Shown here: positions 1-19,392 of the stretch, in pieces
How positions within the stretch are numbered: position 1 is the stretch's first letter
How the letters are laid out: the number at the start of each line of letters is the position of its first letter
Assembly: GCA_027036915.1 (NCBI GenBank)
Contig: JALWCD010000191.1
Location: 1 to 19,392, forward strand
Direction: 5' to 3'
Origin: Thermodesulfatator sp.
Lineage (GTDB): Bacteria; Desulfobacterota; Thermodesulfobacteria; Thermodesulfobacteriales; Thermodesulfobacteriaceae
DNA length: 19,392 bases
Made by a program: the position numbers and the translations under genes
The notes under the pieces: model-generated
The model's input: the letters and a program-made list of their open reading frames with translations, nothing else
Database searches by the model: none
Told to the model about the DNA's origin: nothing

Positions 1-2
1 CC

Positions 3-1672: not shown

Positions 1673-1701
1673 GATACTAAAACCTCCTTAAAAATTGATT
1701 C

Positions 1702-4965: not shown

Positions 4966-4971
4966 GGTCCC

Positions 4972-5556: not shown

Positions 5557-5558
5557 CC

Positions 5559-6170
5559 CTAAGCGGTCTCACTGACCTCGCCTTCCTCCTCGCCCGCGCC
5601 CTCTTCCTCCACCTCCACGATGGTCACCACCGGAGCCTCCGGATCCTCCGCGAAACGGACACCTTCCGGCGGGGTGAGATCCCGCACATGAAGGGTGTCT
5701 CCCACGTCAAGCCCGGAGACGTCGATTTCGATCCGGTCCGGAATACGATCCGGAAGACAGGAGACCGTAATCTCGTGCATGAGAACCTCAAGAAGCCCCC
5801 CGCGCTCCACGCCCTTAGCTTTGCCCACGATCTCCACCGGCACGTCCACCTCCACCGGACGATCCATCCGCACCTCGTAAAAATCGGCGTGGATGATCTC
5901 GTCGGTCACCGGATGATATTGCAATTCCTTGATCAGGGCCATCTTCTGCATGCTCTGCCCGTTGTCCTGAACCGTAAGATTAAAAATAATCTGCTCTCCT
6001 CGATAGCGCAGAAGGATCTTTTTGAGTTCATTGAGTCGAACCGTTAGAGGCATGGGGTCGGTCTGGGGACCATAAAGGATGGCCGGTATCAGCCCCTGCT
6101 TGCGAAGCTTCTTTGCCGCCTCTTTGCCTGTTTTCTTTCTGACCTCGACCGTGAAAGATACCTGCCTCAT
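5559..6170 (-). CDS. rplY: 50S ribosomal protein L25 / general stress protein Ctc
   Basis: 203 residues, the long Ctc-type form: an N-terminal 5S rRNA-binding L25 domain (about 1-95, with LRKQGLIPAILYG near residue 22) plus a C-terminal TL5-like beta domain (about 95-180) and a very acidic tail of Glu/Ala/Gly. It binds 5S rRNA in the central protuberance of the large ribosomal subunit. A GGAAGGAGGG ribosome-binding site sits close upstream of the ATG. It lies between prs (21 bp upstream) and pth (2 bp downstream), an arrangement conserved in many bacteria. The acidic tail is common in this subgroup; its role is unknown. Confidence 0.96.
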   Translation of the reverse strand: MRQVSFTVEVRKKTGKEAAKKLRKQGLIPAILYGPQTDPMPLTVRLNELKKILLRYRGEQIIFNLTVQDNGQSMQKMALIKELQYHPVTDEIIHADFYEVRMDRPVEVDVPVEIVGKAKGVERGGLLEVLMHEITVSCLPDRIPDRIEIDVSGLDVGDTLHVRDLTPPEGVRFAEDPEAPVVTIVEVEEEGAGEEEGEVSETA

Positions 6171-6190
6171 CCCTCAACCCTCCTTCCAGA

Positions 6191-7138
6191 TTAAACAAAA
6201 AGTGAACTTACGGAGTCGTCCGCATGAATTCTGCGGATAGCCTCCCCTAAAAGCCGGGCCACCGAAAGAACCCGGATCTTTTTAATCTCTTTTGCCTCCT
6301 CGCGCAAGGGGATGGTATCGGTCACCACCAGGGATTTGAGGGCCGATTTTCTTATGCGTTCCACCGCCGGGCCGGAGAGAACCGGATGGGTGGCCATACC
6401 GTGGACCTCCTTGGCCCCGCGTTCCTTGATGGCTTCCGCGGCCTTGCACATGGTTCCGGCGGTGTCCACCATGTCGTCCAGAATGATGGCCACCTTCCCC
6501 CTAACCTCTCCCACCACGTGCATGACTTCGCTCTGATTCGGCCCGGGCCGACGTTTGTCCACGATGGCGATCCCGGCGTCCAGCCTCTTGGCGTAGGCCC
6601 GCGCTCTTTCCACTCCTCCGGCATCCGGGGAAACAATCACCAGTTCCTCGTCCCGGAAGGTCTCCCGCAGGTAATCCAGAAGCACCGGGGCCGCAAACAG
6701 ATGATCCACCGGAATGTCGAAAAAGCCCTGAATCTGGCCGGCGTGAAGATCTACCGTAAGGACCCGCCTGGCCCCGGCCACGGTAAGGAGATTGGCTACC
6801 AGTTTGGCTGTGATCGGAGTCCGAGGGGCGGTCTTGCGGTCCTGCCTGGCATAACCGTAATAAGGAATGACGGCGGTAATGCGCCGGGCCGAGGCTCTTC
6901 TTAAGGCGTCGATAATGATAAGAAGCTCCATGAGGTGCTCGTTGACCGGGGTACAGGTGGACTGCACCACAAAGACATCCGCCCCGCGGACATTTTCCTT
7001 GATCTCTACGAAGATTTCCCCGTCGCTAAAACGCCTGATCTCTATCTGCCCCAGGGGAACAGCCAGGTATTCGCAAATCTTCCGCGCCAACTCCGGGTTG
7101 GAAGTACCGCAGAAAATCTTCAGATGATTGACGAACAT
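6191..7138 (-). CDS. prs: Ribose-phosphate pyrophosphokinase (PRPP synthetase)
   Basis: 315 residues, standard for class I PRPP synthetases. It makes PRPP from ribose-5-phosphate and ATP for purine, pyrimidine, histidine, tryptophan and NAD synthesis. Visible landmarks are the ATP-binding ARQDRK at 97-102, His132 in [12 protein letters not shown], the KRRPGPN flexible loop at 195-201 and the PRPP-binding loop DDMVDTAGT at 221-229. A GGAGGGAG ribosome-binding site precedes the ATG, supporting this start even though it lies 19 bp inside the 3' end of ispE. The overlap suggests translational coupling with ispE. guaA downstream uses the pathway that PRPP feeds. Confidence 0.98.
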
Positions 7139-7974
7139 GTCGCTCCCTCCTCGGGAGAGTAATTGGTGACCACAAAAAACTGATAGCCCGAAAAACGTTT
7201 TTCGAGCTCTTCCCGGGCTCTTTGGGCCTCTCTTTCAGCCTCGAAGACCCCGAAAAGGGCCGAACCGCTTCCCGAAAGGCCGACTTTAAGGGCCCCGCTC
7301 TGGCGGAGCGCCTCCTCCAGGACCTCAAGTTCGGGATGTTTTTCGAAAACCAGGGGCTTAAAATCGTTCACCAGCTCTTGGTCCCAGGAAAAATTTTCCG
7401 GCCCATAATTAAGCGGCCTTTTCTTCTTTGTCAATCTCAGATTCCGGTAGGCCCAGGCGGTGGAGATTCGGAAGGGCGGGACCACCACCAGATACCAGGC
7501 CGGAAGCGCTGACCAGGGACGGAGTTTTTCTCCCAGGCCTTCTCCCAGGGCCGTGGAATAGGGAGTGAGAAAAAAAGATACGTCCGCCCCGAGGTCTTTG
7601 GCCAGCTCAAAGAGTTCGCTTTCCGAAAGATGTCCGGGATAAAGCCGGGCCAGCCCTCTGAGGACCGCGGCCGCATCGCTTGAGGCCCCTCCGAGTCCGG
7701 TGCCCGCGGGTATTTTCTTTACCAGGCGGATAAAAACCCCGGCCTCCACCGCCGCCCGGGAAAGATACCTTTCTGCCGCAAGGAAACACAGGTTGGCCCT
7801 TCCCGGGGGGGCCTCCCCTTTCACCTCCAGGCTCAGACCGGTGGCCTTTTGCAGATAAACCTCGTCGCAGAGGGTGATCTTCTGAAAAAGGGTCCGGATC
7901 TCGTGGTAGCCGTCCGGTCGCCTTTCAAGGACGTAGAGAAAGAGATTCAATTTAGCCGGGGCCAGGAGTTTCAT
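7120..7974 (-). CDS. ispE: 4-diphosphocytidyl-2-C-methyl-D-erythritol kinase
   Basis: 284 residues of the GHMP kinase family. It phosphorylates CDP-methylerythritol in the MEP route to isoprenoids. The N-terminal [11 protein letters not shown] holds the catalytic Lys8; the ATP loop [14 protein letters not shown] lies at 89-102; the catalytic Asp131 is in GADVSFFL (the usual form is GADVPFFL); the C-terminal [11 protein letters not shown] is the third GHMP motif. The ATG overlaps the stop of the upstream DUF1844 gene in an ATGA-type overlap, and its 3' end overlaps prs by 19 bp. It ties the operon to isoprenoid supply, possibly relevant to the polyprenol-kinase-like gene at the operon end. Confidence 0.97.
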
Positions 7975-8243
7975 GAAGTAAGCTTCACATACCGGATCCG
8001 GAGTTCATAGAGAATGCTTTCGAGGAGCCGTTCCTCGTCCGGGGTGAGGTTGCCCCGGGTCTTCTCCCGGAGCATGTCCAGGGTGTCAATGGTGTGGCGG
8101 GCCAGGGCCAGGTTCACGCTCTTTTCGTTGGTTTCGGGATTGGGGAGTTCCCCCAGATGGATCAGGGCCGCGGTGTTGAGAGAAAGAATAAAGGTGCTGA
8201 AGGTCACCGGAGGAAGCGGGGCTTCTCCTTTCTCCTTGCTCAT
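7971..8243 (-). CDS. DUF1844 family protein
   Basis: 90 residues. The pattern PPVTFSTFILSLNTAALIHLGELPNP followed by LARHTIDTLDMLREKTRGNLTPDEERLLESILYELRIRYV matches DUF1844 (PF08899), a small family of unknown function common in Desulfobacterota and some other bacteria. The N-terminal half has a weakly hydrophobic amphipathic helix, and the C-terminal half is a helical hairpin with many charged residues. It starts 19 bp after the FmdB-type gene and overlaps ispE by 4 bp, so it is the second gene in the operon. No catalytic motif is seen; its genetic link to ispE is its only functional hint. Confidence 0.85.
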   Translation of the reverse strand: MSKEKGEAPLPPVTFSTFILSLNTAALIHLGELPNPETNEKSVNLALARHTIDTLDMLREKTRGNLTPDEERLLESILYELRIRYVKLTS

Positions 8244-8262
8244 GGACGTCCTCCCGTAAGAA

Positions 8263-8625
8263 CTATTTTTTCTTTTTGATCACCACTTCCGTGCGGCTGA
8301 GATAACCGCCCTTTACGGGCCTTCTTTCGCTCAGGGTGTCGTGAAGTTTTTTGACCGCATCGGTCTTAACGTATTCCTGGGCCAGGGAAAGAAACCTCTG
8401 GGCCTCTTTCACTTTGCCGTCCACCAGATAATCCCGGGCCCTTTTCAGAACGGCCCTTTCCCTTTCGGAACGGTAACCCGCGGCGTCCTGAAAACCAAAG
8501 ATGGAGGGCAGTTTCATCACCCGTTTCTCCCCACACCGGGGGCAGGGTGGAAAGTCCTCCCCCATCTTCATCAACCTCTCGAAGACCTCCCCGCAAACCT
8601 CACAGCGAAATTCGTAAATAGGCAT
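8263..8625 (-). CDS. FmdB-family zinc ribbon protein
   Basis: 120 residues. The N-terminal zinc ribbon (1-45) has two CxxC knuckles, CEVCG and CPRCG, in the typical MPIYEFRC context of the FmdB/CxxC_CxxC_SSSS family. The remaining 75 residues form a charged, mostly helical extension ending in KKKK. The zinc ribbon suggests nucleic-acid or protein binding; the FmdB name comes from a proposed regulator of formamidase genes and gives no function here. It is the first gene of the minus-strand operon. The ribosome-binding sequence GAAGG abuts the ATG with almost no spacer, which is unusual, so initiation could be weak or a nearby start could be used; the MPIYEF start is strongly conserved. Confidence 0.88.
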   Translation of the reverse strand: MPIYEFRCEVCGEVFERLMKMGEDFPPCPRCGEKRVMKLPSIFGFQDAAGYRSERERAVLKRARDYLVDGKVKEAQRFLSLAQEYVKTDAVKKLHDTLSERRPVKGGYLSRTEVVIKKKK

Positions 8626-8635
8626 CCTTCAAAGG

Positions 8636-8684
8636 CTGGTCGTTTCTTTGAATTTTTAATATAATGCTTTTTGCTGTCTTGGCA
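8636..8684. promoter_or_regulatory. Divergent promoter region between FmdB operon and HAD-phosphatase operon
   Basis: The 83-bp gap between the two divergent operons holds the only AT-rich stretch nearby. A consensus TATAAT lies at 8660-8665 on the plus strand with only a weak -35 match near 8637. The same stretch reads TATATT on the minus strand, with a weak -35 upstream of it. Both nine-gene and six-gene operons must start here, so at least one promoter in each direction is expected; exact boxes are uncertain. Confidence 0.4.
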
Positions 8685-8708
8685 CCCTGAAACTAACGAG
8701 GGATTAAA

Positions 8709-9716
8709 ATGCCGCTGGTGGCGCTTGATTGCGAAGGCCCCATCACCTTGAACGACAACGCCTACGAATTTACGGAGGCCCTTATCCCGGGAGGGGGAGA
8801 GTTTTTCGCCCGGGTTTCACGCTACGACGATTACCTGGCGGACGTGGAAAGACGTCCGGGCTACAAGGCCGGAGACACCCTCAAACTCATTTTGCCCTTT
8901 TTGAAGGCCTTCGGGGCCACCAATGAGGGGCTCAGGGATTTTTCCTGCCGGACCCTCCGGGTGTTGCCCCGGGCCGTGGAAACCCTGAGGGCCCTCGTTC
9001 GGCTGGCTCCCACCTTCATCATCAGCACCAGTTATCGTCCCTATCTGGAGGCCCTCTGCGAGATCTCGGGTTTTCCCATGGAGCGGGTCTTTTGCACCGA
9101 GGTGGATTTCGAGGCCGTAAGACTTTCTCCGGCCGAGGAAAAGGAACTTCGCCGGCTGGTGGAAGAGATCCTGAATCTGCCCCTCATTGAAATCCCTCCC
9201 GGAGCCCGCGGTTTTTCGGATCTTCCTCCGGAAAGTCAGCGGGCGGTGGAGCGTATGGAGGAGATCTTCTGGGAAATCATTCCCCGTATGGAAGCGGGCC
9301 GTTTTCTCCGGGAGGTAAATCCGGTGGGAGGCTCGGAGAAGGCCCGGGCCGTGGAGACGGCCCTTGCGGAAACCGGCACCCCGGGTTCCGGGGCCCTTTA
9401 TTTCGGGGACAGCATTACGGACGTGGAGGCCCTCTCTCTCGTGAGAGAAGCGGGGGGAGGGGCGGTGGCCTTTAACGCCAACCGTTACGCCCTCCGGGCA
9501 GCGAACTTTTTCGTGCTCTCGGAGACCGCGGAGCCGGAAAGGATTCTGACCGAGGTCTTTTTGCAAGACGGCCGGGTCGGGCTCGAAAGACTGGCCCGAG
9601 AGGCTAAGGAGGGCTTTGAGATGGGCCAACTCGAAAACCTTACCGAGGACCTCATCCGCCGAAGCGAAACCTTCCGCAAGGGCGTCCGCGGAGAAACCAT
9701 AGGAGCGTTAGGATGA
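8709..9716 (+). CDS. HAD-superfamily phosphatase-like protein (archaeal-type)
   Basis: 335 residues with the four HAD motifs in order: LDCEGPITL with nucleophile Asp7 (the second acid is Glu9 instead of Asp), IISTSYRP with Ser106/Thr107, Lys211 in GGSEKARAV, and YFGDSITDVEAL with Asp234 and Asp238. A long helical insert (about 135-200) lies between motifs II and III and should be the cap. It is probably a cytoplasmic phosphatase or phosphotransferase; the substrate is unknown. It resembles predicted hydrolases found mainly in archaea (COG4030-like), which is an inference from memory of the motif layout. GAGGG at about 8698 serves as ribosome-binding site. The stop overlaps the rhomboid ATG (ATGA), so the two are translationally coupled. 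Confidence 0.75.
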   Translation: MPLVALDCEGPITLNDNAYEFTEALIPGGGEFFARVSRYDDYLADVERRPGYKAGDTLKLILPFLKAFGATNEGLRDFSCRTLRVLPRAVETLRALVRLAPTFIISTSYRPYLEALCEISGFPMERVFCTEVDFEAVRLSPAEEKELRRLVEEILNLPLIEIPPGARGFSDLPPESQRAVERMEEIFWEIIPRMEAGRFLREVNPVGGSEKARAVETALAETGTPGSGALYFGDSITDVEALSLVREAGGGAVAFNANRYALRAANFFVLSETAEPERILTEVFLQDGRVGLERLAREAKEGFEMGQLENLTEDLIRRSETFRKGVRGETIGALG

Positions 9717-10459
9717 TTCCTCTACAGGACATCCTTCCCCGACGTACGGTGCCCGTGGTGACCTGGGGGCTCATAGCCCTGAACACCCTGGTCTTTCTCC
9801 TGGAAGTGTTACTTCCGGAGACCGGACGGGAGCTTCTTTTCCAGTATCTGGGGCTCATCCCGGCCCGGATTACGGATCCCGAATGGGCCAGAATGCACGG
9901 CTTCCCTCCGGGGGCCTACCTCACCTTCCTTACCCATCTTTTCCTCCACGGGGGCTGGGTGCATTTCCTGGGCAACATGTGGACCCTCTGGATCTTCGGG
10001 GATAATGTGGAGGATCGGCTGGGGCATGTGCGTTTCCTTCTTTTCTATCTTTTATGCGGTCTGGCCGCGGCCCTGGTCCACATTTACTTCCATCCCCATT
10101 CCACGATACCCACCATCGGGGCTTCCGGGGCCATTTCCGGTGTGCTCGGAGCCTACTTCGTGATGTTCCCCCTGGCCCGGGTGATCGTGATGATCCCCAT
10201 CTTCATTTTTCCTTTCTTCTTCGAGGTTCCGGCCGTGCTCTACCTGGGTTACTGGTATCTGATCCAGATCTTCTCCGGCACCCTTTCCCTGGCCCTTCCC
10301 GGACACGTGGGAGGGGTGGCCTGGTGGGCACATGTGGGAGGGTTTCTGGCCGGGGTCCTCACCCATCGCCTGTTCTGTTCCCGCCGGGGCTGTTATTACC
10401 GAGACGAGGAGGTCCCCTGGGGCACGGTAATCTCTTACCTTGATCGGATAAACCGGTAA
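9713..10459 (+). CDS. Rhomboid family intramembrane serine protease
   Basis: 248 residues, about six or seven membrane helices. The catalytic dyad is visible: Ser138 in the GASG motif (136-139) and His207 in AWWAHVGGFLAG. HFLGNMW (84-90) contains the conserved His and Asn88 of the oxyanion hole, and DRLGHVRFLLFYL follows as in other rhomboids. It cleaves substrates within the membrane. The long L1 region with EWARMHGFPPGAYLTFLTHLFLHG is typical for the family. A cysteine-containing tail, RLFCSRRGCYY, lies at the C-terminus. It overlaps the upstream HAD gene by 4 bp and is followed 10 bp later by another membrane-linked protease, suggesting a membrane protein quality-control pair. Confidence 0.95.
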   Translation: MIPLQDILPRRTVPVVTWGLIALNTLVFLLEVLLPETGRELLFQYLGLIPARITDPEWARMHGFPPGAYLTFLTHLFLHGGWVHFLGNMWTLWIFGDNVEDRLGHVRFLLFYLLCGLAAALVHIYFHPHSTIPTIGASGAISGVLGAYFVMFPLARVIVMIPIFIFPFFFEVPAVLYLGYWYLIQIFSGTLSLALPGHVGGVAWWAHVGGFLAGVLTHRLFCSRRGCYYRDEEVPWGTVISYLDRINR

Positions 10460-10469
10460 GGAGGGCGTT

Positions 10470-11336
10470 ATGAGCGGTTTCGATTTCTTCTGGCTCTTTT
10501 TCATGCTGGTCGCCTTACAGCCCATTCTCCGGCAAAGAATGCTTGAGGCCGCGCGCCAGCGCATGATCGCCAAGATCGAGAAGATGCGGGGCTCAAGGGT
10601 CATCCTTCTGGTTCACCGTCAGGAGACCATGAGCTTTCTGGGCTTTCCCATCATGCGTTTCATCGATATTAACGATTCCGAACAGGTCATCCGGGCCATT
10701 CATATGACCGACCCCGAAGTGCCCATCGACCTCATCCTGCACACCCCGGGAGGTCTGGTGCTGGCGGCCCTTCAGATCGCCCGGGCGGTGAAAAAACACC
10801 CCGGCAAGGTCACGGCCTTCATTCCCCACTACGCCATGAGCGGAGGGACGTTGATTGCGCTGGCTGCAGACGAGATCGTGATGGACGAGCACGCAGTGCT
10901 CGGGCCAGTGGACCCCCAGCTGGGACAGTTCCCCGCGGCTTCCATTGTGCGGGCCGCCCGTGAAAAACCCCTGGAGCACGTGGACGACCAGACCCTCATC
11001 CTGGCCGATATGGCGGAAAAGGCCCTGCGGCAGATGCGAGAGAATCTGCGGGATCTCCTCGCCGGAAAATATCCGCCAGAGAAGGTGGACGAACTTTCCG
11101 AGCTTCTTACGCAGGGACACTGGACCCACGATTATCCCATTACCTTTGAGGAGGCCCGGAAGATGGGGCTTCCGGTCCGCAAGGACATGCCGCACGAGAT
11201 CTATCAGCTCATGAGTCTTTTCCCGCAACCGGTGCGCCAGGCCCCTTCGGTGGAGTTCAATCCTGTCCCGCGGCGGGCTCCTTCCGGCTCTCAGAATCAC
11301 CAGTCGATGTTATCTCTGCTCCGCTATTGGTTTTGA
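10470..11336 (+). CDS. SDH family Clp-like membrane serine protease
   Basis: 288 residues with one N-terminal membrane helix (about 5-20), then a ClpP/crotonase-fold domain. LILHTPGG (88-95) is the oxyanion-forming loop, and the nucleophile is Ser124 in YAMSGGTLIALAADEI; ADEIVMDEHAVLGPVDPQ follows, as in the SDH/SppA-like family (PF01972). The C-terminal helical part contains WTHDYPIT and ends in a Pro-rich tail. It is expected to be membrane anchored with a soluble protease domain. The name 'serine dehydrogenase proteinase' is historical and does not mean dehydrogenase activity. The family is best known from archaea and scattered thermophilic bacteria. A GGAGGG ribosome-binding site precedes the ATG; it lies 10 bp after the rhomboid gene. 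Confidence 0.88.
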   Translation: MSGFDFFWLFFMLVALQPILRQRMLEAARQRMIAKIEKMRGSRVILLVHRQETMSFLGFPIMRFIDINDSEQVIRAIHMTDPEVPIDLILHTPGGLVLAALQIARAVKKHPGKVTAFIPHYAMSGGTLIALAADEIVMDEHAVLGPVDPQLGQFPAASIVRAAREKPLEHVDDQTLILADMAEKALRQMRENLRDLLAGKYPPEKVDELSELLTQGHWTHDYPITFEEARKMGLPVRKDMPHEIYQLMSLFPQPVRQAPSVEFNPVPRRAPSGSQNHQSMLSLLRYWF

Positions 11337-11341
11337 TACGG

Positions 11342-11370
11342 TTGACCCTTAGGGGCTTGCGGGCTAAGTT
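11342..11370 (+). promoter_or_regulatory. Weak candidate promoter before the M18 aminopeptidase gene
   Basis: TTGACC at 11342-11347, a 17-bp spacer, and TAAGTT at 11365-11370, in the 64-bp gap after the SDH protease gene. The -35 is close to consensus but the -10 is poor, so this may only be chance; the gene could equally be read from the upstream promoter. Confidence 0.3.
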
Positions 11371-11400
11371 TTCCCTGACTTCTCGCGCAAGGAGGCTCCC

Positions 11401-12810
11401 ATGGCGCGCAAAAAAGATGCTTTCAAGGAACTCAAGGAAAAGCTGACCCTTTCTCCCAAACCGGTCTGGGATCAACTTGCGGCCAAAGAAAAGAAGGCGG
11501 CCGAACGGTTGGCGGAGGATTATCGCAGGTTTCTCTCCACGGCCAAGACCGAGCGGGAATGTGTGGAGGCCATGGCGGCCCTTCTCAAAAATAAAGGTTT
11601 TACCGCCGAACCCTCGGCCCGTTATTACACCGTCTTCCGGGAAAAGATGCTAGCGGTCTTCGTGGCCGGAAAGAAACCCCCCTATTACGGGCTGCGCCTC
11701 ATCGCCACCCACATCGACAGTCCGCGTCTCGACCTCAAGCTCCATCCCCTCTACGAGGACCTGGATCTGGCCTTTTTCAAAACCCACTACTATGGCGGAA
11801 TCAAGAAATACCACTGGGTGGCCCGGCCGCTGGCCCTGCACGGTGTGGTGGTCAAACCCGACGGGCGCAAGGTGAAGATCGTCATCGGAGAAGACCCGGG
11901 CGATCCGGTGTTTACGGTCTGTGATCTTCTGCCCCATCTCTCCCGTAAGGTTCAGGGCGAAAAGAAACTCTCCGAGGCCATTCCGGGTGAAAAACTCAAC
12001 GTCCTGGTGGGGGGGCTGCCCCTGGTGGGGTCCTCCGAGGATAAGGAACGTGTGAAACTCTCTATCCTTAAGATTCTCCACGAAAAGTACGGTCTTACCG
12101 AGGAAGATTTCATCAGCGCCGAGCTCGAAGTGGTGCCCGCCGGTCAGGCGGTGGAGGTGGGCCTCGATCGGGCCTTTATCGGGGGCTACGGCCAGGACGA
12201 TCGCATCTGCGCCTTTGCCGCTCTGGCGGCCGTGCTGGATCTGGCGGAACCCCTCTATTCCACCCTGGTGATCTTCATGGACAAGGAGGAGATCGGCTCC
12301 GACGGAAACACCGGAGCCAAGAGCCGGTTTCTGGAAAAACTGGTCTACGAATATCTCAAGCTTTACGGGGTCACCCCCCAGGGGGACACCGTGCTTGAGA
12401 CCTTTCTGCGTTCCAGAGCCGTCTCGGGGGATGTAACCGCGGGTATGGACCCTCACTATATGGAGGTACACGAAAAGCTGAACGATGCCCGGATGGGATA
12501 CGGGGTGGTCCTTACCAAATACACCGGCCACGGCGGAAAGTATATGGCCAACGACGCCCATGCGGAGTACATGGCCTGGCTCAGGCGGATCTTCTCCGAG
12601 GCGGGTGTGGTTTACCAGGCGGCCTCCATGGGCAAGGTGGACGAAGGCGGAGGCGGCACGGTGGCCAAATATCTGGCGGCTTACGGGATGGACATCGTGG
12701 ACATGGGCCCTCCGCTCCTCGGTATGCACTCGCCCTTCGAGGTGGCCCACAAGGCCGATCTCTACATGACCTATAAGGCTTACCGGGCCTTCCTTTCCGC
12801 CGGAGACTGA
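11401..12810 (+). CDS. M18 family aminopeptidase (aspartyl aminopeptidase type)
   Basis: 469 residues, the standard length. It is a cytosolic zinc aminopeptidase that removes N-terminal residues, often Asp or Glu, from peptides and forms large tetrahedral particles. The metal and catalytic residues are visible: His104 and Asp106 in ATHIDSPRLDLK, Asp266/267 in GYGQDDRIC, Glu296/297 in DKEEIGSDGNTG, Asp350 in DVTAGMDPHY and His443 in GMHSPFEVAHKAD. AAGGAGG about 7 bases before the ATG sets the start. Its stop overlaps the trmI ATG by one base. In this cluster it could finish degradation of peptides made by the two upstream membrane proteases, which is an inference from position. Substrate preference cannot be assigned. 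Confidence 0.95.
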   Translation: MARKKDAFKELKEKLTLSPKPVWDQLAAKEKKAAERLAEDYRRFLSTAKTERECVEAMAALLKNKGFTAEPSARYYTVFREKMLAVFVAGKKPPYYGLRLIATHIDSPRLDLKLHPLYEDLDLAFFKTHYYGGIKKYHWVARPLALHGVVVKPDGRKVKIVIGEDPGDPVFTVCDLLPHLSRKVQGEKKLSEAIPGEKLNVLVGGLPLVGSSEDKERVKLSILKILHEKYGLTEEDFISAELEVVPAGQAVEVGLDRAFIGGYGQDDRICAFAALAAVLDLAEPLYSTLVIFMDKEEIGSDGNTGAKSRFLEKLVYEYLKLYGVTPQGDTVLETFLRSRAVSGDVTAGMDPHYMEVHEKLNDARMGYGVVLTKYTGHGGKYMANDAHAEYMAWLRRIFSEAGVVYQAASMGKVDEGGGGTVAKYLAAYGMDIVDMGPPLLGMHSPFEVAHKADLYMTYKAYRAFLSAGD

Positions 12811-13583
12811 TGACCGAAATCATCCGCGAGGGCGATCTGATCCTTCTGGTGGTTCCGGAGGGGGCGCACTACCTTCTGCGCGCCGAGGATCGCACGTTTC
12901 ACACCCATCGGGATTACGTGGCCCTCGGGGAGTTCATCGGAAAACCTTATGGAACGCGTGTTCCGGGAGCTCAGGGTACCCCCTTTTACGCCGTGCGTCC
13001 CACCCTTCATGATCATCTTATGAAGCTGCGCCGGGCCACTCAGATCATCTACCCCAAGGAAATCGGGATCATACTCCTGAAACTCGACGTGGGGCCGGGT
13101 AAAACGGTCCTCGAATGTGGTACGGGCTCGGGGGCCCTGACCACCGCTCTGGCCCACGCCGTGGGGCCGGAGGGTCGGGTCATCACCTACGAGAGGGAGG
13201 AGCGTTTCCGGGAACTGGCCCGGGAGAATCTCCGCCGGGCCGGTCTGGAGGGAAGGGTAATCTTCAAAGGAGAAGTTGTAGAAGGCTTTGAGGAGGAAGA
13301 GGCGGTGGACGCGGTCTTTCTGGACCTGCGGGAACCCTGGGAGCTTCTGCCCGCGGCCTGGCGGGCCCTTAGGGGAGGAGCCCCCTTTGGAGCCCTGGTT
13401 CCCACGGTGAATCAGGTCTCCCGGTTACTTTCCTCCCTGGCTGAACTTCCTTTCGTGGGACTTGAGGTGCAGGAGATACTTCAGCGATTTTACAAGGTCA
13501 ACCCGGAAAGACTCCGTCCCGAAGACCGGATGGTGGCTCACACCGGTTATCTCATCTTTGCCCGTAAGGTTTTTGAAAGATGA
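12810..13583 (+). CDS. trmI: tRNA (adenine-N1)-methyltransferase, TrmI family
   Basis: 257 residues of the TrmI/Trm61 type that use S-adenosylmethionine to methylate A58 (and in archaea-like forms A57) in the T loop of tRNA, a modification tied to heat stability. The N-terminal beta domain ends with QIIYPKEIG at 78-86; the SAM-binding motif I is [10 protein letters not shown] at 102-111; the catalytic motif is DLREPW at 172-177 (usually DLPEPW, so Pro is replaced by Arg at position 174); the C-terminal [13 protein letters not shown] is typical. Start and stop overlap both neighbours (TGATG with the aminopeptidase, ATGA with ybeY), showing one cotranslated operon. Confidence 0.94.
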
Positions 13584-14752
13584 CCCGTCAGGCGTTCCTG
13601 GAGGAAAAACTCCGAGAGGCCCTGAGACTCCTCGGACTTCCGGAAAAGATCTTCGATCTCCATCTACTCGACGACCGGGGTATTACCCGTCTGAATCAAC
13701 GTTATCTCGGCCGCTCCTATCCCACCAATGTAATCGCCTTTTCTTTCTGGGAAGGGGAACGGCCGCCGGGCACACCTTACCTGGGTGAAATCTTTATTTC
13801 CGTTGAGACGGCCCGGAGGGAGGCCCGGGAATACGGCCTGCCCTTCAGGGATTACTTGCTTGCGCTTGCGGTTCACGGTCTGCTGCATCTTCTGGGATAT
13901 GATCACGAGAAAGGGCTTCAGGCCCCGGCTCGCATGGCCCAAAAAGAAGCGGAACTCCTTGAAAAACTCCTGGGAAAGAGGCATAAAGCTATCGTAAACT
14001 TCATAAGAAGGAGGGAATACATGCCGGCCAAACTAGCGGTCAATGTGGATCATGTAGCCACGGTAAGGGAGGCCCGGAAGGTTCACTATCCGGATCCGGT
14101 GCACGCGGCGGTTCTGGCCGAACTGGGGGGAGCTCACGGGATCGTGGTCCATCTCCGGGGTGATCGACGGCACGTTCAGGAACGGGATGTTCGGCTTCTC
14201 CGCGAGATTGTAAAGACCAAACTCATCCTTGAGATGGCCCCCACGGAGGAAATGATCGCCTTCGCCCTTGAGGTTAGACCGGATCAGGTCACGCTGGTTC
14301 CGGAAAGAAGGATGGAGATCACCACCGAAGGGGGGCTGGCGGTAAAGGGACGGGTCAAAAAGGTGCGCACGGTGGTGGAACGATTAAAGGAAGGGGGTAT
14401 CCCCAAGGTAAGCATTTTTATCAACCCTGATCCGGCCGAGCTCCGTTCGGCGGCCAAAACCGGGGCGGATGTGGTGGAGCTTCATACCGGACACTACGCC
14501 GAGGCCGGGACTTCGGAAGAACGGGAAAGGGAGCTGGCGCGCCTTGAGGAGGCCGCTCGCGTGGCCCGGGATCTGGGGTTTGAGGTTCACGCGGGGCATG
14601 GACTCTCTTACGAGAATGTGGAACCGGTGGCCGCCATTCCCGAGATCGAGGAATTTAGCATCGGCCACGCCATCATCGCCCGGGCCATCATGGTAGGCAT
14701 GCGGGAGGCCGTACGGGAGATGTTGAGCCTGATAGAGAAGGCCCGGGGCTAG
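13580..14752 (+). CDS. YbeY endoribonuclease fused in frame to pyridoxine 5'-phosphate synthase PdxJ
   Basis: One 390-residue reading frame holding two complete proteins. Residues 1-147 are YbeY, an rRNA-maturation RNase, with the zinc motif [11 protein letters not shown] (His99, His103, His109) and PTNVIAFSF near residue 48 (the usual Asp is Asn). Residues 148-390 are a full 243-residue PdxJ. No stop codon separates them, yet a strong ribosome-binding site and ATG sit at the junction, so PdxJ may also be made alone. The shifted frame has TAA codons at 13995-13997 and 14004-14006, where a separate ybeY would naturally end. The gene may thus be a true fusion, or two genes joined by a one-base change or sequence error. 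It overlaps trmI by 4 bp. Confidence 0.8.
14009..14014 (+). promoter_or_regulatory. Ribosome-binding site for independent pdxJ start
   Basis: AGGAGG lies six bases before the ATG at 14021, within the ybeY-pdxJ reading frame. It is as strong as any other in the window and supports separate PdxJ translation in spite of the in-frame join. Confidence 0.75.
14021..14752 (+). CDS. pdxJ: Pyridoxine 5'-phosphate synthase (from internal start)
   Basis: 243 residues, matching normal PdxJ length. It condenses 1-deoxyxylulose 5-phosphate with 3-amino-2-oxopropyl phosphate to make pyridoxine 5'-phosphate, the last ring-forming step of the DXP-dependent vitamin B6 route. Family signatures are [15 protein letters not shown] at the start, His44 and Arg46 in [11 protein letters not shown], Glu71 in [10 protein letters not shown], His193 in [10 protein letters not shown], and [14 protein letters not shown]. 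In the HLREDRRH motif the usual Glu is Gly47. The start at 14021 is supported by the ideal ribosome-binding site at 14009-14014. The same frame continues upstream without a stop into ybeY. The 3' end overlaps the convergent small gene by 4 bp. Confidence 0.93.
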
Positions 14753-14973
14753 GCCTGACCTTCGGGGAGTTTGGCCTTTTCCAGTCGGGCCAGGGCTTCC
14801 TCAAGGCTCATGATGCCCTTGGCCACGGCGTAAGCCACGTAAGGATACACCCGCGGATCATAACCTTCCGGTCGGGGGAAAAGCCCCTTGGCCCGCAGTT
14901 TAGCCAGTTTGGCCCGCCGCCGGCGGCGTCTTTCGATCTCTCTCTTCCGCTCGATTTTCTTGTGTCTGGCCAT
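14749..14973 (-). CDS. Small, highly basic hypothetical protein
   Basis: 74 residues. The first 30 contain about 20 Arg/Lys/His, including a run of six Arg (ERRRRRRAK), followed by LAKLRAKGL, a Tyr/Pro stretch ([19 protein letters not shown]), and a helix [17 protein letters not shown]. The basic N-terminus suggests contact with RNA, such as rRNA, or DNA; the rest could be a small folded helix pair. I do not recognise the family securely; a DUF6800-like short basic protein is one possibility. It has its own good promoter (see 15013-15041), a leader of about 30 bases, and it converges on pdxJ with overlapping stop codons. Real coding status is supported by its promoter and good codon use. Confidence 0.7.
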
Positions 14974-15012
14974 GACCTCGCCTCACCCCTTGATTTTTGT
15001 TTTCGGCTCCTT

Positions 15013-15041
15013 TATATAAAGGCTACTTCCGCTTCCGTCAA
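15013..15041 (-). promoter_or_regulatory. Sigma-70-type promoter for the basic small protein
   Basis: Read on the minus strand: TTGACG (-35, 15036-15041), exactly 17 bases, then TATATA (-10, 15013-15018). This is one of the clearest promoters in the window and points at the gene starting at 14973, giving a leader of roughly 30 bases. Confidence 0.72.
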
Positions 15042-15048
15042 GGAATCT

Positions 15049-15054
15049 TATAAT
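15049..15054 (+). promoter_or_regulatory. -10 box before the HxxxCxxC small protein
   Basis: A consensus TATAAT 22 bases before the ATG at 15077. No convincing -35 is found 16-18 bases upstream, where the opposite-strand promoter lies, so the two divergent promoters overlap and may compete. Confidence 0.45.
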
Positions 15055-15076
15055 TGTGTAGAGGGTTGCAGGGGTT

Positions 15077-15322
15077 ATGCAGTGTGCAAGGCTTAGGAGT
15101 CTGGCCCGGGAGTGGTTTCTAAAGGTGCGGGAGGATGCCCTGGCTCCGGCCCGGATGATGGAGTTTATTCATCGCCATATTCGGCAGTGTCCGGTCTGCC
15201 AAGCTGATCCGGATCTCCCTCAGGAGGTGGAAAAGATTCGGGAGTTCATCCGGGCTCCGGAGGTCATTCCTACCGTACAGGAAATCTCCGAGGAGACGGA
15301 GGAGGAAAAACCTCTTGTCTGA
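15077..15322 (+). CDS. Small hypothetical protein with HxxxCxxC zinc-type motif
   Basis: 81 residues. A basic helical N-terminus (1-37) leads to FIHRHIRQCPVCQADP, in which His34-x3-Cys38-x2-Cys41 matches the HxxxCxxC zinc motif of ZAS anti-sigma factors and zf-HC2 domains. The C-terminal half is acidic (PTVQEISEETEEEKPLV) and there is no membrane segment. It could be a soluble zinc-binding regulator; no sigma-factor gene is next to it here, so an anti-sigma role is only a suggestion. It has a TATAAT box upstream and a modest ribosome-binding site (CAGGGG). It ends 32 bp before the tRNA gene. I do not recognise a named family. Confidence 0.65.
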   Translation: MQCARLRSLAREWFLKVREDALAPARMMEFIHRHIRQCPVCQADPDLPQEVEKIREFIRAPEVIPTVQEISEETEEEKPLV

Positions 15323-15354
15323 GGGATAGATCTGTTAAAATTTTATATAGCTTG

Positions 15355-15431
15355 GCCCCCGTAGCTCAATCGGATAGAGCAGCGGCCTTCTAAGCCGTTG
15401 GTTGGGGGTTCGAGTCCTCCCGGGGGCACCA
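15355..15431 (+). tRNA. tRNA-Arg, anticodon TCT
   Basis: A complete 77-nt cloverleaf. Acceptor stem GCCCCCG (15355-15361) pairs with CGGGGGC (15421-15427); the D arm GCTC/GAGC, the anticodon stem GCGGC/GCCGT with loop CTTCTAA, and the T arm with TTCGAGT all fold. The anticodon TCT is at 15389-15391 and reads AGA (and probably AGG) Arg codons. The 3' CCA is encoded (15429-15431). A TATATA box at 15344-15349 may be its -10. tRNA-Arg 3' ends are common integration targets, and a degraded accessory gene follows directly. Confidence 0.97.
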
Positions 15432-15522
15432 GGTTTCTCATCAATTTCCCGATTCTACAAAGATTCCCGCCCTTATTTTCCCGGATTCGTGTGCGTCGTT
15501 CCGGGTTGTTGCGTGCTATTAC

Positions 15523-15542
15523 ACGGTAAAAATACGGTAAAA
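15523..15542 (+). repeat. 11-bp-period direct repeat downstream of tRNA-Arg
   Basis: ACGGTAAAA occurs at 15523-15531 and again at 15534-15542, giving an 11-base period, one helical turn. The unit resembles, in inverted orientation, the duplicated 11-mer at 15781-15802 (8 of 11 positions). Such spaced repeats next to a tRNA end could be remnant integrase or repressor binding sites. The stretch 15432-15540 shows no coding region I can support. Confidence 0.5.
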
Positions 15543-15590
15543 GGAGGTCCGGCCCATGGCCACCCTCTCCTGCCGGCTTTTTAGAAGCTT

Positions 15591-16176
15591 GTGCGTCTTT
15601 GTGCCGGAAGGGCGGGTCAGGTGCTAGACCTCTCGTCTTTGGCCTTGGATGCCGGAATCTCTCACACCACGGCTCGAAGGTGGTTTTCGGTGTTGCAAGC
15701 GGCCTTCGTGGTTGTTTTATCTTCTTCCACCTCATCACGAAAACTTCTCCAAAAGACTCATCAAGGCCTCCCAAAACTTTATTTTTACGACATTTTTACG
15801 ACACCGGGCTGCTCTGTTACCTCCTTGGCCTGAGGTTCCCGGAGGACCTTCGGGTGCATCCCCTGCGGGGGCTGTTTTTGAAAACTTCGTTTTTACCGAA
15901 CTCTACAAGGCCTTTGCCCATCAGGGAGAGGACCCCCCGCTTTACTTCTGGCGTGATCGGACCGGCCACGAGGTGGACTTTGTGCTGGATCTGGGGAGAA
16001 ATCTTACGCCGGTTGAGGCCAAATTTTCGGAAACCGCAACCCGGAATCAGCTTTGGAATTTTTTCTATTACCTGCGAGTGGCCGGCCCGCGGGCCGACCG
16101 CGGCCTTCTCATCTATGCGGGCGAGAAAGCCTTTGAGCGCGAGGGAATTTCCGTTCGCCCCTGGTTTTACCTGTAA
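15591..16176 (+). pseudogene. Remnant of a DUF4143-containing AAA-type ATPase
   Basis: The C-terminal half of an archaeal-style AAA_14/DUF4143 ATPase can be read, but only by changing frame four times. LCAGRAGQVLDLSSLALDAG to AAFVV is in one frame (15591-15713), FYLLPPHHENFSKRLIKA in the second (to about 15767), PKLYFYD back in the first (15771-15791), then TGLLCYLLGLRFPEDLRVHPLRG in the third after an 11-bp duplication, and finally VFENFVFTELYKAF to the stop in the second after apparent loss of one G in the run at 15867-15871. The N-terminal ATPase domain with its Walker motifs is absent. These proteins are often mobile and lie in accessory DNA; their function is poorly known. The stop overlaps the convergent cupin gene by 10 bp. 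Confidence 0.88.
15781..15802 (+). repeat. 11-bp perfect tandem duplication inside the ATPase pseudogene
   Basis: ATTTTTACGAC is present twice head to tail (15781-15791 and 15792-15802). Deleting one copy gives the continuous sequence PKLYFYDTGLLCYLLG expected for the DUF4143 domain, so the duplication is itself one of the frame-breaking mutations. Confidence 0.92.
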
Positions 16177-16436
16177 TGTTTACGGATGGGCTTTAGCACC
16201 CGCCACACGCAACGGACGCCCTTTCTAAAGGTCACGAGGTCTCCTTTCCCGAAGCGCACCTTGGTACCGTCGTCAAGCTCCACCTCCACTTCGCCCTCCA
16301 CCACATAGAAGGTCTCGTCCTCCGGGTAATACCAGTCGAACTCGCTTACCCCCTTCTCCCAGGTAGGCCAACTGAAGACCCCGAGTTTTTCAAGCTCCTC
16401 AGCTGTAGGCTTCTTGATAGTGACTTTTTCTTCCAT
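16167..16436 (-). CDS. Cupin-domain protein (DUF861 / cupin_3 type)
   Basis: 89 residues forming a single small beta-barrel. The core EFDWYYPEDETFYVVEGEVEVELDDGTKVRFGKGDLVTFRKGVRCVWRVLKPIRKHY matches the (S)-ureidoglycine-aminohydrolase-like cupin_3 group (PF05899). The usual metal-binding His residues are not obvious, so metal binding and enzyme activity are doubtful; Glu in ETFYVVEGE and Cys/Trp near the end are the conserved marks. It should be a cytoplasmic small-molecule binding or isomerising protein of unknown substrate. GGGGAGGG precedes the ATG. It is a single gene, converging on the ATPase remnant and divergent from the membrane-protein gene, sharing a 97-bp regulatory region. Confidence 0.85.
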   Translation of the reverse strand: MEEKVTIKKPTAEELEKLGVFSWPTWEKGVSEFDWYYPEDETFYVVEGEVEVELDDGTKVRFGKGDLVTFRKGVRCVWRVLKPIRKHYR

Positions 16437-16470
16437 GGTTCCCTCCCCTTGGCAGCTCTGAATTACAAAA

Positions 16471-16498
16471 TTACAATCTGTGAGAGGGATTATATAAA
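16471..16498 (+). promoter_or_regulatory. Candidate promoter of the accessory membrane-protein gene
   Basis: TTACAA at 16471-16476, 16 bases, then TATAAA at 16493-16498, inside the AT-rich divergent region. The -35 match is weak. It lies directly upstream of the palindrome at 16505-16521. Confidence 0.35.
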
Positions 16499-16504
16499 CA
16501 ATTT

Positions 16505-16521
16505 CCTTTTAAGTTAAAAGG
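16505..16521. promoter_or_regulatory. Operator-like palindrome
   Basis: CCTTTTAA and TTAAAAGG flank a single central G: a perfect 8-bp inverted repeat. It falls just after the candidate -10 and 12 bases before the ATG at 16534, where a repressor dimer would block transcription or initiation. It lacks a following T tract and is mostly A/T, so a terminator is less likely. Confidence 0.5.
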
Positions 16522-16533
16522 GGTGAGGGCGGG

Positions 16534-16965
16534 ATGGAGTACACCTCTCAAGAATTGCGAACTTTTATGCTCAAAGAAATAGAGATCATTCAGGAGATAA
16601 TAAAGCGTATGGCCTTTAATTCTTTTATGATCAAGGGCTGGACGGTGACCCTGGTAGCCATAACCCTTCTTCTTAAAGGTTCTCCTCATCAGGCTTTTAT
16701 TGCCTTTATTCCCCTTTTAGTGTTTTGGTATCTTGACGCCTACTTTCTGCACCAGGAAAGGCTTTACCGGCGGCTTTACCGCTGGGTGGTGGAGAATCGG
16801 TTGAAAACTTCAGAGTATCTTTTTGACCTCAATGCGTATCGGTTTGCCGGAGAAGAACAAAGCCGTTTCCGCATCATGTTTTCTCTAACGCTTTTTTCCT
16901 TCTACGGTTCCATATTCCTCCTGATTTTTCTCTATCTCGTCCTTCTGTTTGGAGGGCTCGGTTAA
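16534..16965 (+). CDS. Hypothetical three-helix membrane protein
   Basis: 143 residues. An N-terminal cytosolic helix (EIEIIQEIIKRMAFNSFMIKGW) is followed by two close membrane helices (about 32-50 and 53-73), a basic/aromatic segment DAYFLHQERLYRRLYRWVVENRL, a short loop, and a third long helix (about 114-142). I recognise the pattern as one seen repeatedly in bacterial accessory regions as an unnamed protein, possibly near defence genes, but cannot name a family or function. The gene is more AT-rich than the core genome to the left. GGGTGAGGGCGGG before the ATG is a rough ribosome-binding site. It is followed by a 177-bp gap before cas8, so it is probably a separate unit. Confidence 0.7.
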   Translation: MEYTSQELRTFMLKEIEIIQEIIKRMAFNSFMIKGWTVTLVAITLLLKGSPHQAFIAFIPLLVFWYLDAYFLHQERLYRRLYRWVVENRLKTSEYLFDLNAYRFAGEEQSRFRIMFSLTLFSFYGSIFLLIFLYLVLLFGGLG

Positions 16966-16970
16966 GCGAG

Positions 16971-17051
16971 TCTATACCGCTCTACCTCCGAGCCGGTTAT
17001 AAGGGATTTTTACCCAAGCTATTTGCTCCACACTTAAGAATTCGGTATAGA
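16971..17051. repeat. Inverted 9-bp repeat overlapping the cas promoter
   Basis: TCTATACCG at 16971-16979 and CGGTATAGA at 17043-17051 are exact inverse complements separated by 63 bases. The right arm covers the likely -10 box of the cas operon. The arms could be operator half-sites for a DNA-looping regulator or the stem of a large hairpin. No open reading frame of note lies in the 16966-17071 gap. Confidence 0.6.
17023..17051 (+). promoter_or_regulatory. Candidate promoter of the type I-B cas operon
   Basis: TTGCTC (17023-17028), exactly 17 bases, then TATAGA (17046-17051). Four of six bases match in each box. It lies about 90 bases before cas8 and 20 before the small GTG frame at 17072. 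Confidence 0.5.
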
Positions 17052-17071
17052 GATTTCGAGGGGGAAATAAA

Positions 17072-17158
17072 GTGATCCAGGCCCTCATCGTCATCGCCGG
17101 AGCCCTTCGCATCCGCTACCCCATGCCGTTTGCGGAGGGAGTATGGGAGAAAGGGTAG
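17072..17158 (+). CDS. Possible 28-residue leader peptide or gene remnant before cas8
   Basis: A GTG start at 17072 preceded by GAGGGGG at suitable distance opens a 28-codon frame that begins with a hydrophobic stretch (IQALIVIAGALRIRYPMPF) and ends with TAG at 17156, overlapping cas8 by 16 bp. It is GC-rich, unlike the AT-rich cas8 that follows. It could be a leader whose translation couples to cas8, the leftover of a deleted gene such as cas6, or chance. There is no recognisable domain. Confidence 0.28.
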   Translation: MIQALIVIAGALRIRYPMPFAEGVWEKG

Positions 17159-18480
17159 TTGTGGATCTTTCCAGGCCTACCGGAAATTTTTGGATAGACA
17201 ATGGCCTGGTAGTTCTTTATCGCCTTTTCGGAGCCGGGGAGGTTGATTGTGAGGAGGTTTTGGAAAAACTCATTGCCAAATTATATCCCAAAAAATTTCC
17301 GTATACTTCATTTAATAGGATAAGTACTGGTAAACCCAGATTGGATTTTACAGATAAAGGCTACTGTCACATTTGTGGCGCCCGGGAAAATCTTACGGAA
17401 GGTAAAATGTGGTTTTTTCCGTTTGTAGTCGCATTAAACAGATTCGCAAATTTTTATAGCAACCTTCAACAGAAATTAATGATGTGTCCCACCTGTGCGA
17501 TAGCAGGCTTAGCAGGGTATGTGGGCTGGCTCTGGCGGGCTCAGGGCAGAGATGCCCTTCACATTTTCTGTTTTCACGGAGATCTTAAAGACATAGAACA
17601 ACTTTACCGCGAGGTGCTTGATCCTATCCGTTTGGAAGAAAAAGGTGGAAATGTTCCTTTGGCTTTTTATGGACCCTATCTTCATGAGACAGCCTGGGGA
17701 CTCCTCCTGAGGCTTTTCTCCTATGTTCGGCACCATTCCGAAGAAGAAAAGCTATCTCCTGAAGCTTCACAGCTTTTGGCCGGGCTTTTCGGTGTTTCAG
17801 AAAAGACATCTTTTACTCCCTTAGTTCTATATGTGATTACCGGTAAACCGAGTAATGCTTTTGATATGCAATCCTTTAAAGAGATAAGTCATCTTGCAAG
17901 TCTATATCATCTCTACGAGCGCTGGATAGAAATTTTCAAAGAAGATCCCAAGCCTCAAGAAATTCTTGAGAAGGTCTTTCGACAGTTTCAGCGACCCGAA
18001 GGCAATACTTACAATACCATTTGGAGAGAACGAATTTCGGCTGCGGTCCTGAACTTTGAAGATCCTTTACCCCCGGTAGAAGAATTTCTTTTCCAGAGAG
18101 ATTCTAAACCGCTCATAAAAGGAAGCCTTGAGGTTTTTGAACTTTATGTAAAGGAGGTTTTGGCAATGGAGACCAATCTTTTAAATGCCATTAAACGCTT
18201 CGGTTATTCTCTGGGCAGTAAAGCTCAACAAAAAAACGAAATGGGGCTTCTTTATGCCTTGCGCAACGCTAAAAATCTGGATGAGTTCTTCCGGGTTTTA
18301 AACGATGTCCAATATCGGTTAGGACTTCCGGTACCCGAAAGTCTGCTTGAGGTTGAACCTGGAGAATCCATAAAGGGTAGTCCTTGGAGGCGAGTAAAAA
18401 CCCTTCTTTCCATTTATGCTATGAATGCCTTTTTACGGGCCCAAAATAAAGAAGAGGGCAAGGAGGGAGGAAATGAGTAA
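17143..18480 (+). CDS. cas8b1: Type I-B CRISPR-associated protein Cas8b1/Cst1 (CXXC-CXXC)
   Basis: 445 residues. The N-terminal half has the CXXC...CXXC pair that names the Cst1 family, CHIC at residues 75-78 and CPTC at 115-118, presumably a zinc site. Cst1 is the large subunit of the type I-B (Tneap) Cascade complex, responsible for PAM recognition and target-strand loading in the cytoplasm. The start at ATG 17143 has GCGGAGGGA upstream. It overlaps cas7 by 8 bp (ATGAGTAA), as usual for this operon. Near the 3' end a strong internal ribosome-binding site and in-frame ATG (18166) predict a separate small subunit. The AT-rich codon use contrasts with the housekeeping region, consistent with acquisition by transfer. 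No cas6 lies directly upstream in the window. Confidence 0.9.
   Translation: MGERVVVDLSRPTGNFWIDNGLVVLYRLFGAGEVDCEEVLEKLIAKLYPKKFPYTSFNRISTGKPRLDFTDKGYCHICGARENLTEGKMWFFPFVVALNRFANFYSNLQQKLMMCPTCAIAGLAGYVGWLWRAQGRDALHIFCFHGDLKDIEQLYREVLDPIRLEEKGGNVPLAFYGPYLHETAWGLLLRLFSYVRHHSEEEKLSPEASQLLAGLFGVSEKTSFTPLVLYVITGKPSNAFDMQSFKEISHLASLYHLYERWIEIFKEDPKPQEILEKVFRQFQRPEGNTYNTIWRERISAAVLNFEDPLPPVEEFLFQRDSKPLIKGSLEVFELYVKEVLAMETNLLNAIKRFGYSLGSKAQQKNEMGLLYALRNAKNLDEFFRVLNDVQYRLGLPVPESLLEVEPGESIKGSPWRRVKTLLSIYAMNAFLRAQNKEEGKEGGNE
18150..18157 (+). promoter_or_regulatory. Internal ribosome-binding site inside cas8
   Basis: AAAGGAGG lies 8 bases before the in-frame ATG at 18166. It is stronger than the site at cas8's own start. 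Such internal sites are known in type I-B cas8 genes, where they allow independent translation of the small subunit. Confidence 0.7.
18166..18480 (+). CDS. cas11: Predicted Cas11-type small subunit translated from within cas8
   Basis: The last 104 residues of Cas8, beginning METNLLNAIKRFGYSLG (Met342 of the full protein), can be made separately from the ATG at 18166, given the AAAGGAGG 8 bases before it. In type I-B and related Cascade systems the large-subunit gene has been shown to encode a second, shorter product that forms the belly of the complex as several copies; a mainly helical protein of ~100 residues is expected and this segment is helical in pattern. This is an inference from position and the ribosome-binding site; the protein itself cannot be observed from sequence. 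Confidence 0.6.
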   Translation: METNLLNAIKRFGYSLGSKAQQKNEMGLLYALRNAKNLDEFFRVLNDVQYRLGLPVPESLLEVEPGESIKGSPWRRVKTLLSIYAMNAFLRAQNKEEGKEGGNE

Positions 18481-19039
18481 AGCCATCAGTATTGGCTATC
18501 TCTTTAAGGTTTCAGCCGGCAATGTAAACGCATCCCATACGGAAGGAAATGTAATGGTGGCTAAAAAGGTAACGCTTCCCGACGGGAGCGCCATTCCATA
18601 CATTTCAGGGCAGGCCTTAAGGCGTATGCTCCGCGATCGCCTTGAAGACCTGGGTTGGCGTCTTTCAGAACGTTTCTGCCAGGTTTCCGGGCAGGAGGTT
18701 ACCCCGCCTGTGAGACCATGGGAGTTTATAGACGAAGACCTTTTCGGGTATTTGGATACTTCCGGGCGCAGGAGGCGCACCTCGCCGGTTAGGGTTTCAG
18801 CAGCTATTGGCCTTTTCCCTTATCAGGGCGATCGGGATCTTGGCACCCGTTCTTTTGAAAAATTCAGTCAAGCTATGAGCGAGGGCGGGAACATGTTCGA
18901 AACCGAAATATACGCCAATCTTTTCAGGGGGGTCATTCTGATCGAGCTTGACCGAATAGGAGTTTGGAAGACGCGATATGAGTTAATTCAGCCAAGTTCT
19001 AATAAAAATGCAGATGCAAGAGAGAAAGAAGAATTCTAA
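18473..19039 (+). CDS. cas7: Cas7/Cst2 (DevR-type), N-terminal part; frame broken by duplication
   Basis: 188 residues before a premature TAA. The start SKAISIGYLFKVSAGNVNASHTEGN and the segments LPDGSAIPYISGQALRRMLRD and RTSPVRVSAAIGL are typical of the Cst2/DevR Cas7 backbone protein, which coats crRNA in Cascade. AGGAGGGAGGAA precedes the ATG, which overlaps the end of cas8. Normal proteins are about 290-340 residues, so this is truncated. The stop comes from the junction of a perfect 37-bp tandem duplication (18997-19070). If one copy is removed the frame runs on without a stop through the right edge of the window, 294 codons in all within it. The AT-rich region after the break encodes a charged low-complexity loop, then the C-terminal half. 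Function is lost unless frameshifting, reversion or internal starts rescue it. Confidence 0.88.
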   Translation: MSKAISIGYLFKVSAGNVNASHTEGNVMVAKKVTLPDGSAIPYISGQALRRMLRDRLEDLGWRLSERFCQVSGQEVTPPVRPWEFIDEDLFGYLDTSGRRRRTSPVRVSAAIGLFPYQGDRDLGTRSFEKFSQAMSEGGNMFETEIYANLFRGVILIELDRIGVWKTRYELIQPSSNKNADAREKEEF

Positions 19040-19070
19040 TAAAAATGCAGATGCAAGAGAGAAAGAAGAA
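18997..19070 (+). repeat. Perfect 37-bp tandem duplication inside cas7
   Basis: Copy 1 is 18997-19033 and copy 2 is 19034-19070, identical at every base. Each starts TTCTAATAAAAATGC and ends AGAGAGAAAGAAGAA. The length, 37, is not a multiple of three, so the second copy shifts the frame and puts a TAA (19037-19039) in the first. No dyad or spacer is present, so it is not a CRISPR repeat. Confidence 0.96.
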
Positions 19071-19392
19071 AAGGAAAGAGAAAAAAGTTTAATAGAAAAT
19101 ACTAAAAATCAAGGATTACAATACGAAAGTTTACAGAATGGTTTATTAATTAGCCTTCCTTCTACCCAAAAAATAGAGAGGGTTGAGGCCCTATTTGACG
19201 CCCTCGGACTTCTCTGGGGTGGAGGGCGTACTGCCCGGATGCTTACCGACCTTTCGCCGCGCTTTTTTGCTTATGCACGCCTCAAGGTAAAACATCCGGT
19301 ATTTTTGGAAAATCTTGAGGCCGAATTCGAAAAAGGTAGGTACCTTTTAAAACTTAAGTCTCTCAGAAGCGTCCTTGAGCGCTTTAAGAATC
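19008..19392 (+). CDS. cas7: Cas7/Cst2, C-terminal part, shifted frame, runs off right edge
   Basis: The shifted frame has an ATG at 19008 and another at 19014 within the first repeat copy, and then continues with the expected Cas7 C-terminal half: LISLPSTQKIERVEALFDALGLLWGGGRTARMLTDLSPRFF and a C-terminal YLLKLKSLRSVLERFKN at the edge. A charged, Asn/Lys/Glu-rich linker precedes it. No ribosome-binding site is near the ATG, so this fragment may not be made by itself. It overlaps the N-terminal frame by 32 bp. Together the two fragments make one normal Cas7 when one repeat copy is deleted. The stop codon lies beyond the window. Confidence 0.75.
   Translation, partial: MQMQERKKNSNKNADAREKEEKEREKSLIENTKNQGLQYESLQNGLLISLPSTQKIERVEALFDALGLLWGGGRTARMLTDLSPRFFAYARLKVKHPVFLENLEAEFEKGRYLLKLKSLRSVLERFKN

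Follow-up and report, generated by a model that had tools for sequence, protein, structure and literature searches.

The window analysed here, a stretch of 19,392 nucleotides from a draft genome of Thermodesulfatator sp. (1.73 Mb in 263 contigs), corresponds to bases 1-19392 of a 22,576-base scaffold. It stops directly before a gap of 10 N (19393-19402) that falls inside cas7. The scaffold carries, in this order, cas8b, cas7, the 10-N gap, the tail of cas7, cas5, cas3 and an ORF that is cut by the scaffold end. The features of the cas region in the window are as follows.

17143-18480, forward strand: cas8b (Cst1-type large subunit, 445 aa), intact; TIGR01908, 21.2 bits (cut-off 19.4)
18473-19039, forward strand: 5' part of cas7, 188 aa, with the stop TAA at 19037-19039; TIGR02585, 159.3 bits (cut-off 72.75)
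18961-19187, forward strand: cas7 linker block, unlike that of the related locus L004
18997-19033, forward strand: copy 1 of a 37-bp tandem duplication (Tandem Repeats Finder)
19008-19391, forward strand: 3' part of cas7 in a shifted frame, open to the window end (ORF list, profile search)
19034-19070, forward strand: copy 2 of the 37-bp tandem duplication, which brings a TAA in frame (Tandem Repeats Finder, sequence)

Beyond the window, the 3' part of cas7 ends at scaffold position 19475, past the 10-N gap. The Cas5 encoded downstream on the same scaffold scores above the cut-off of TIGR02593 and below that of Cas5t, and the downstream Cas3 is above the cut-offs of both helicase and HD models. 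With cas8b upstream of cas7, and cas5 and cas3 downstream, the operon is of type I-B. None of cas8b, cas5 and cas3 contains a stop. The cut ORF is assigned to cas4 by its position only. A second cas7 copy and a match to Cas1 were not found in this genome, and a crude scan of 886 kb of it revealed no CRISPR array; the lone match of the array scan, located in L106, is a tandem repeat of 84 bp in coding sequence. Since the cas scaffold stops within the ORF at the cas4 position, the adaptation genes may simply be unassembled. A search of the operon against Rfam at gathering thresholds gave no match.

Several other features were observed upstream of the operon. An ORF of 143 aa (16534-16965) shows two hydrophobic stretches by eye and had no match in Pfam or NCBIfam at E 0.001. 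The reading IQALI...RYPMPFAEG, recognized by eye, is common to the window (17072-17158) and L004 (1094-1180); it precedes cas8b, overlaps its start in another frame and is a possible gene remnant. Just after a tRNA-Arg (15355-15431) lies the decayed remnant of a DUF4143 gene (~15585-16173, split over frames), which contains a perfect 11-bp tandem duplication (15781-15803). This is the second frame-changing tandem duplication in the same 19 kb.

A preliminary description of the locus had reported two identical 37-base copies, head to tail, in cas7 of a type I-B system, and a reading frame that is broken at once. Tandem Repeats Finder confirmed the repeat at 18997-19070 (period 37, 2.0 copies, 100% matches); its score of 148 is the highest among the 14 rows returned for the window. 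A perfect tandem copy of this length is far beyond chance. Because 37 is not divisible by three the frame shifts, and the cas7 frame that starts at 18473 is closed by the second codon of copy 2, a TAA at 19037-19039. A second ORF, which opens at 19008, encodes the C-terminal half of a Cas7-family protein. Residues 12-167 of the first ORF align with positions 3-168 of the TIGR02585 profile (Cas7/Cst2/DevR), and residues 22-127 of the second ORF continue this match at positions 179-272. The 3' part alone reaches 51.5 bits, which is under the cut-off of 72.75. With its 5' part above this cut-off and with cas8b, cas5 and cas3 as neighbours, the broken gene reads as a type I-B Cas7 (Cst2/DevR). It belongs to the same family by sequence, but the window allele is truncated: the stop comes after 188 aa in an otherwise conserved gene, whereas intact homologues have ~300-350 aa. 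The linker block that holds the repeat (18961-19187) is ~69% A+T as compared to 44% for the window. The description of the repeat, the gene and the broken frame was thus upheld.

The linker was compared among relatives by taking its length between two fixed points of the protein, which gave a value for 29 of the 31 fetched loci (all except L030 and L034). The length varied between 13 and 57 aa, and both halves of cas7 were in one frame in all 29. The duplication lies in a linker that varies naturally. Subtracting one 37-base copy from the 190 bases of the window linker leaves 153 bases or 51 codons, the same length as in L013 and L029; a linker of at least 49 aa occurs in four of the 29 relatives, and the one-copy window linker is among the longer ones. 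The same linker type, undoubled, is present in a metagenomic protein of 346 aa (P0017), which has 88% identity to the read-through of the window gene in a local alignment and 93% in a multiple alignment. From the 51-aa arithmetic and the intact linker of P0017 we conclude that the undoubled gene is ancestral and that intact copies exist.

The five other genomes of the genus that were examined contained no close cas7 copy; there was one weak match with 34% identity, in G005. Among viral contigs nine stretches fit a pattern, none of which was confirmed as a relative. In a survey of 198 genomes of the phylum, 13 were above the family cut-off, and a stop in cas7 was found in one of the 12 other than the window's own. 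The stop is an in-frame TGA (1837-1839) in the cas7 of G105 (L178:1483-2574), a gene of a distant type; G105 is a single-contig genome from the same family. The loss of cas7 is therefore not unique to the window genome, and inactivation recurs.

A broken frame could still yield a working protein if ribosomes shifted frame at the repeat, or if the two halves were made separately, the second from the ATG at 19008, and assembled as a split Cas7. This ATG belongs to copy 1 and precedes the stop by about 30 bases. The break is near the start of a helix predicted for the linker of P0017 (residues 180-198), where the length varies among relatives. By eye, however, no Shine-Dalgarno-like sequence precedes 19008 and no obvious slip site is present for the required +1 shift, and in none of the 29 measured relatives is cas7 split at the break site. 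A middling-quality model of the intact P0017 is Cas7-like over both halves when compared with the solved Cas7 subunits 8fcj_E, 3ps0_C, 7xz3_A and 8h67_J, and its fold matches to Cas7 chains cover model residues 1-344. Sequence searches of solved structures gave weak matches only (best Cas7 8h67_E, E=0.026, with profile A1) and no match for the Cas8b profile A2. We consider a functional split or recoded gene to be very improbable.

The duplication could also have been made by the assembler or scaffolder, in which case living cells carry one copy. The 10-N gap is in cas7 as well, 322 bases downstream of the repeat, and each of the 54 N runs seen has a length of exactly 10, so that gap sizes look nominal. 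The odd length of the repeat, 37, might come from a k-mer overlap that was not merged. Furthermore, an alternative linker with near-identical flanks is known from P0014, P0015 and L004, which makes a mixed-strain assembly plausible. On the other hand, there are no Ns between the two copies. We scanned 886,166 bases in 118 sequences (51% of the genome) and detected 12 perfect tandem duplications with a period of 12 to 399, nine of them with periods divisible by three; when the limit was lowered to 10 bases and multiples of three were left out, there were six, two of which are in the window. The 886 kb contained no other 37-bp tandem copy, unlike what is expected from k-mer overlaps, and no duplication across or flanking an N run. 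End overlaps of 16-200 bases were also absent among the unmasked whole contigs compared. An assembler k-mer signature was rejected on these grounds for the part scanned; the scan argues against an assembler-wide error and not against a local one. For a Cas8b that differs from the window's by one residue (H256R; P0177), the longest contig measures 24,085 bases and not 22,576, so that a second assembly of the population probably exists. Two sequences make up the cluster of the truncated 188-aa Cas7 (P0128), and the best 120 of 721 matches include no intact Cas7 that is near-identical. From this we infer, indirectly, that the second assembly is also devoid of an intact cas7. Together, an artefact seems unlikely to us, although misassembly is the main alternative to an ordinary recent inactivation of cas7, which is the most likely reading.

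The absence of stops in cas8b, cas5 and cas3 suggests that the break is young and that the operon is not long dead. For an estimate of selection, the differences from L004 (a 3,262-base contig from a draft genome that bears the label Thermodesulfatator atlanticus) were polarised with two outgroups, L007 and L008, over the N-part of cas7 and the C-part of cas8b. The ratio of nonsynonymous to synonymous changes was 16/10 on the window branch, 4/14 on the L004 branch and 7/18 for differences assigned to neither (Fisher p=0.014). A count at the protein level of Cas8b with four outgroups gave 19 residues private to the window, one private to L004 and eight ambiguous; four of the 19 fall in an exchanged segment described below. 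In cas7 the window has P67R, P96T, G99R and G132S, which are absent from the nearest relatives and occupy positions that are 94-100% conserved among 175 sequences. Columns with at least 95% conservation took three of five private changes in cas7 against a baseline of 66/312 (p=0.07), while in cas8b there was no excess (1/22 against 26/1019, p=0.44). The window cas7 departs from four such columns, one of them shared with relatives, and seven of the 175 other sequences depart from more (relatedness ignored); in this raw count it is no outlier. The signal of relaxed selection is weak. Constraint may have loosened, but the data are also consistent with a very recent break.

Over most of cas8b and the N-part of cas7 the window and L004 are ~95% identical. 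Two blocks are quite different, one in cas8b (~17262-17502) and one in the cas7 linker (18961-19187), and their borders are abrupt, those of the linker block with near-identical DNA on either side. The forms of the window occur in P0178 and P0017 (longest contig 7,496 for each), and those of L004 in P0179 and P0014 (longest contig 14,847 for each); the equal contig sizes suggest that each pair comes from one operon. Hence the near-identical cas operons (L004, P0014, P0015, P0017, P0178, P0179 and the window) differ in an N-terminal segment of Cas8b and in the Cas7 linker, each of which comes in two alternative forms. A strict coupling of the two across phyla was rejected upon inspection, as long linkers occur with both Cas8b forms: the TGN-GEY stretch of Cas8b is present in L013 and absent from L005 and L029, all three of which have long linkers. 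Recombination between related operons is the plain reading of the two forms; they may reflect recombination or pressure on the surfaces of Cascade.

The preliminary description had also raised the possibility of a reversible on/off switch. Copies of the 37-bp unit would then be gained and lost often enough to be useful, and interference would operate in cells with one copy and be silent in those with two. Phase-variable contingency genes have repeat tracts of many short units whose copy number sets the frame, and such a tract is usually, though not of necessity, kept in relatives. The window resembles them in that repeat number sets the reading frame (with two 37-bp copies a stop appears) and contraction could restore it; it differs in having two long copies, and relatives without the repeat. 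The perfect repeat, its frame-changing length, the A+T-rich site and the open neighbouring cas genes are all compatible with a switch, and for Staphylococcus epidermidis it has been speculated that IS256 insertions make CRISPR immunity phase-variable (PMC3784566). However, the comparison with relatives did not bear out the switch. None of the 29 measurable linkers contained a comparable tandem repeat; the highest score among them was 3.1, and the window scores 16.6. A copy number of just two is what a single duplication event would leave, and the private changes of the window cas7 at near-invariant sites are unexpected in a gene that is regularly switched on, although this is a weak test. With no comparable repeat in 29 relatives and one continuous frame in all of them, the 37-bp site does not appear to be a conserved switch site. 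On the same survey we reject the idea that linkers have grown repeatedly through such repeats. Among the open-access papers listed, titles and the beginnings of abstracts yielded no slippage-type phase variation of a cas gene. A designed or programmed switch is possible but unsupported, and we judge a reversible phase switch to be improbable. An extended version, in which the copy number switches Cascade across the population while the linker and the Cas8b segment form a surface that diversifies in response to phage inhibitors, is very improbable.

Loss of immunity through spontaneous frameshifts in cas genes has been documented by Jiang et al. 2013 (PMC3784566) for the csm/cas10 locus of S. 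epidermidis; the genotypes include single-base deletions, nonsense and missense mutations, IS insertions and larger deletions. The present case is similar in that a frame-breaking change affects one cas gene, with interference abolished in those mutants and expected to be abolished here. It differs in the kind of change, a tandem duplication of 37 bp, and in the gene affected, a type I-B cas7 that is known from the sequence of an environmental draft genome.

On balance we lean towards the view that a spontaneous, recent 37-bp tandem duplication knocked out CRISPR interference in this lineage. The duplication in the A+T-rich linker of this type I-B cas7 would be of recent date, and, 37 being no multiple of three, translation stops one codon into copy 2. 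The 188-aa product lacks the C-terminal portion of Cas7, a backbone subunit; Cascade should then fail to assemble, and interference would be lost in the lineage. Most simply, this is a young loss-of-function allele, one of those that accumulate at CRISPR loci where immunity carries a cost. As the two copies are perfect, slippage or recombination could delete one of them and so repair the gene in occasional cells. The change is reversible in principle, like any tandem duplication of this kind, with no sign of selection for reversibility or of its maintenance.

If the duplication is real, a type I-B backbone gene was knocked out in nature, and recently, by a precisely revertible change. It would offer a testable case for how frequently wild populations lose their CRISPR immunity and recover it. 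The two forms of the linker and the Cas8b segment in near-identical operons provide a separate lead on what drives variation of the Cascade surface.
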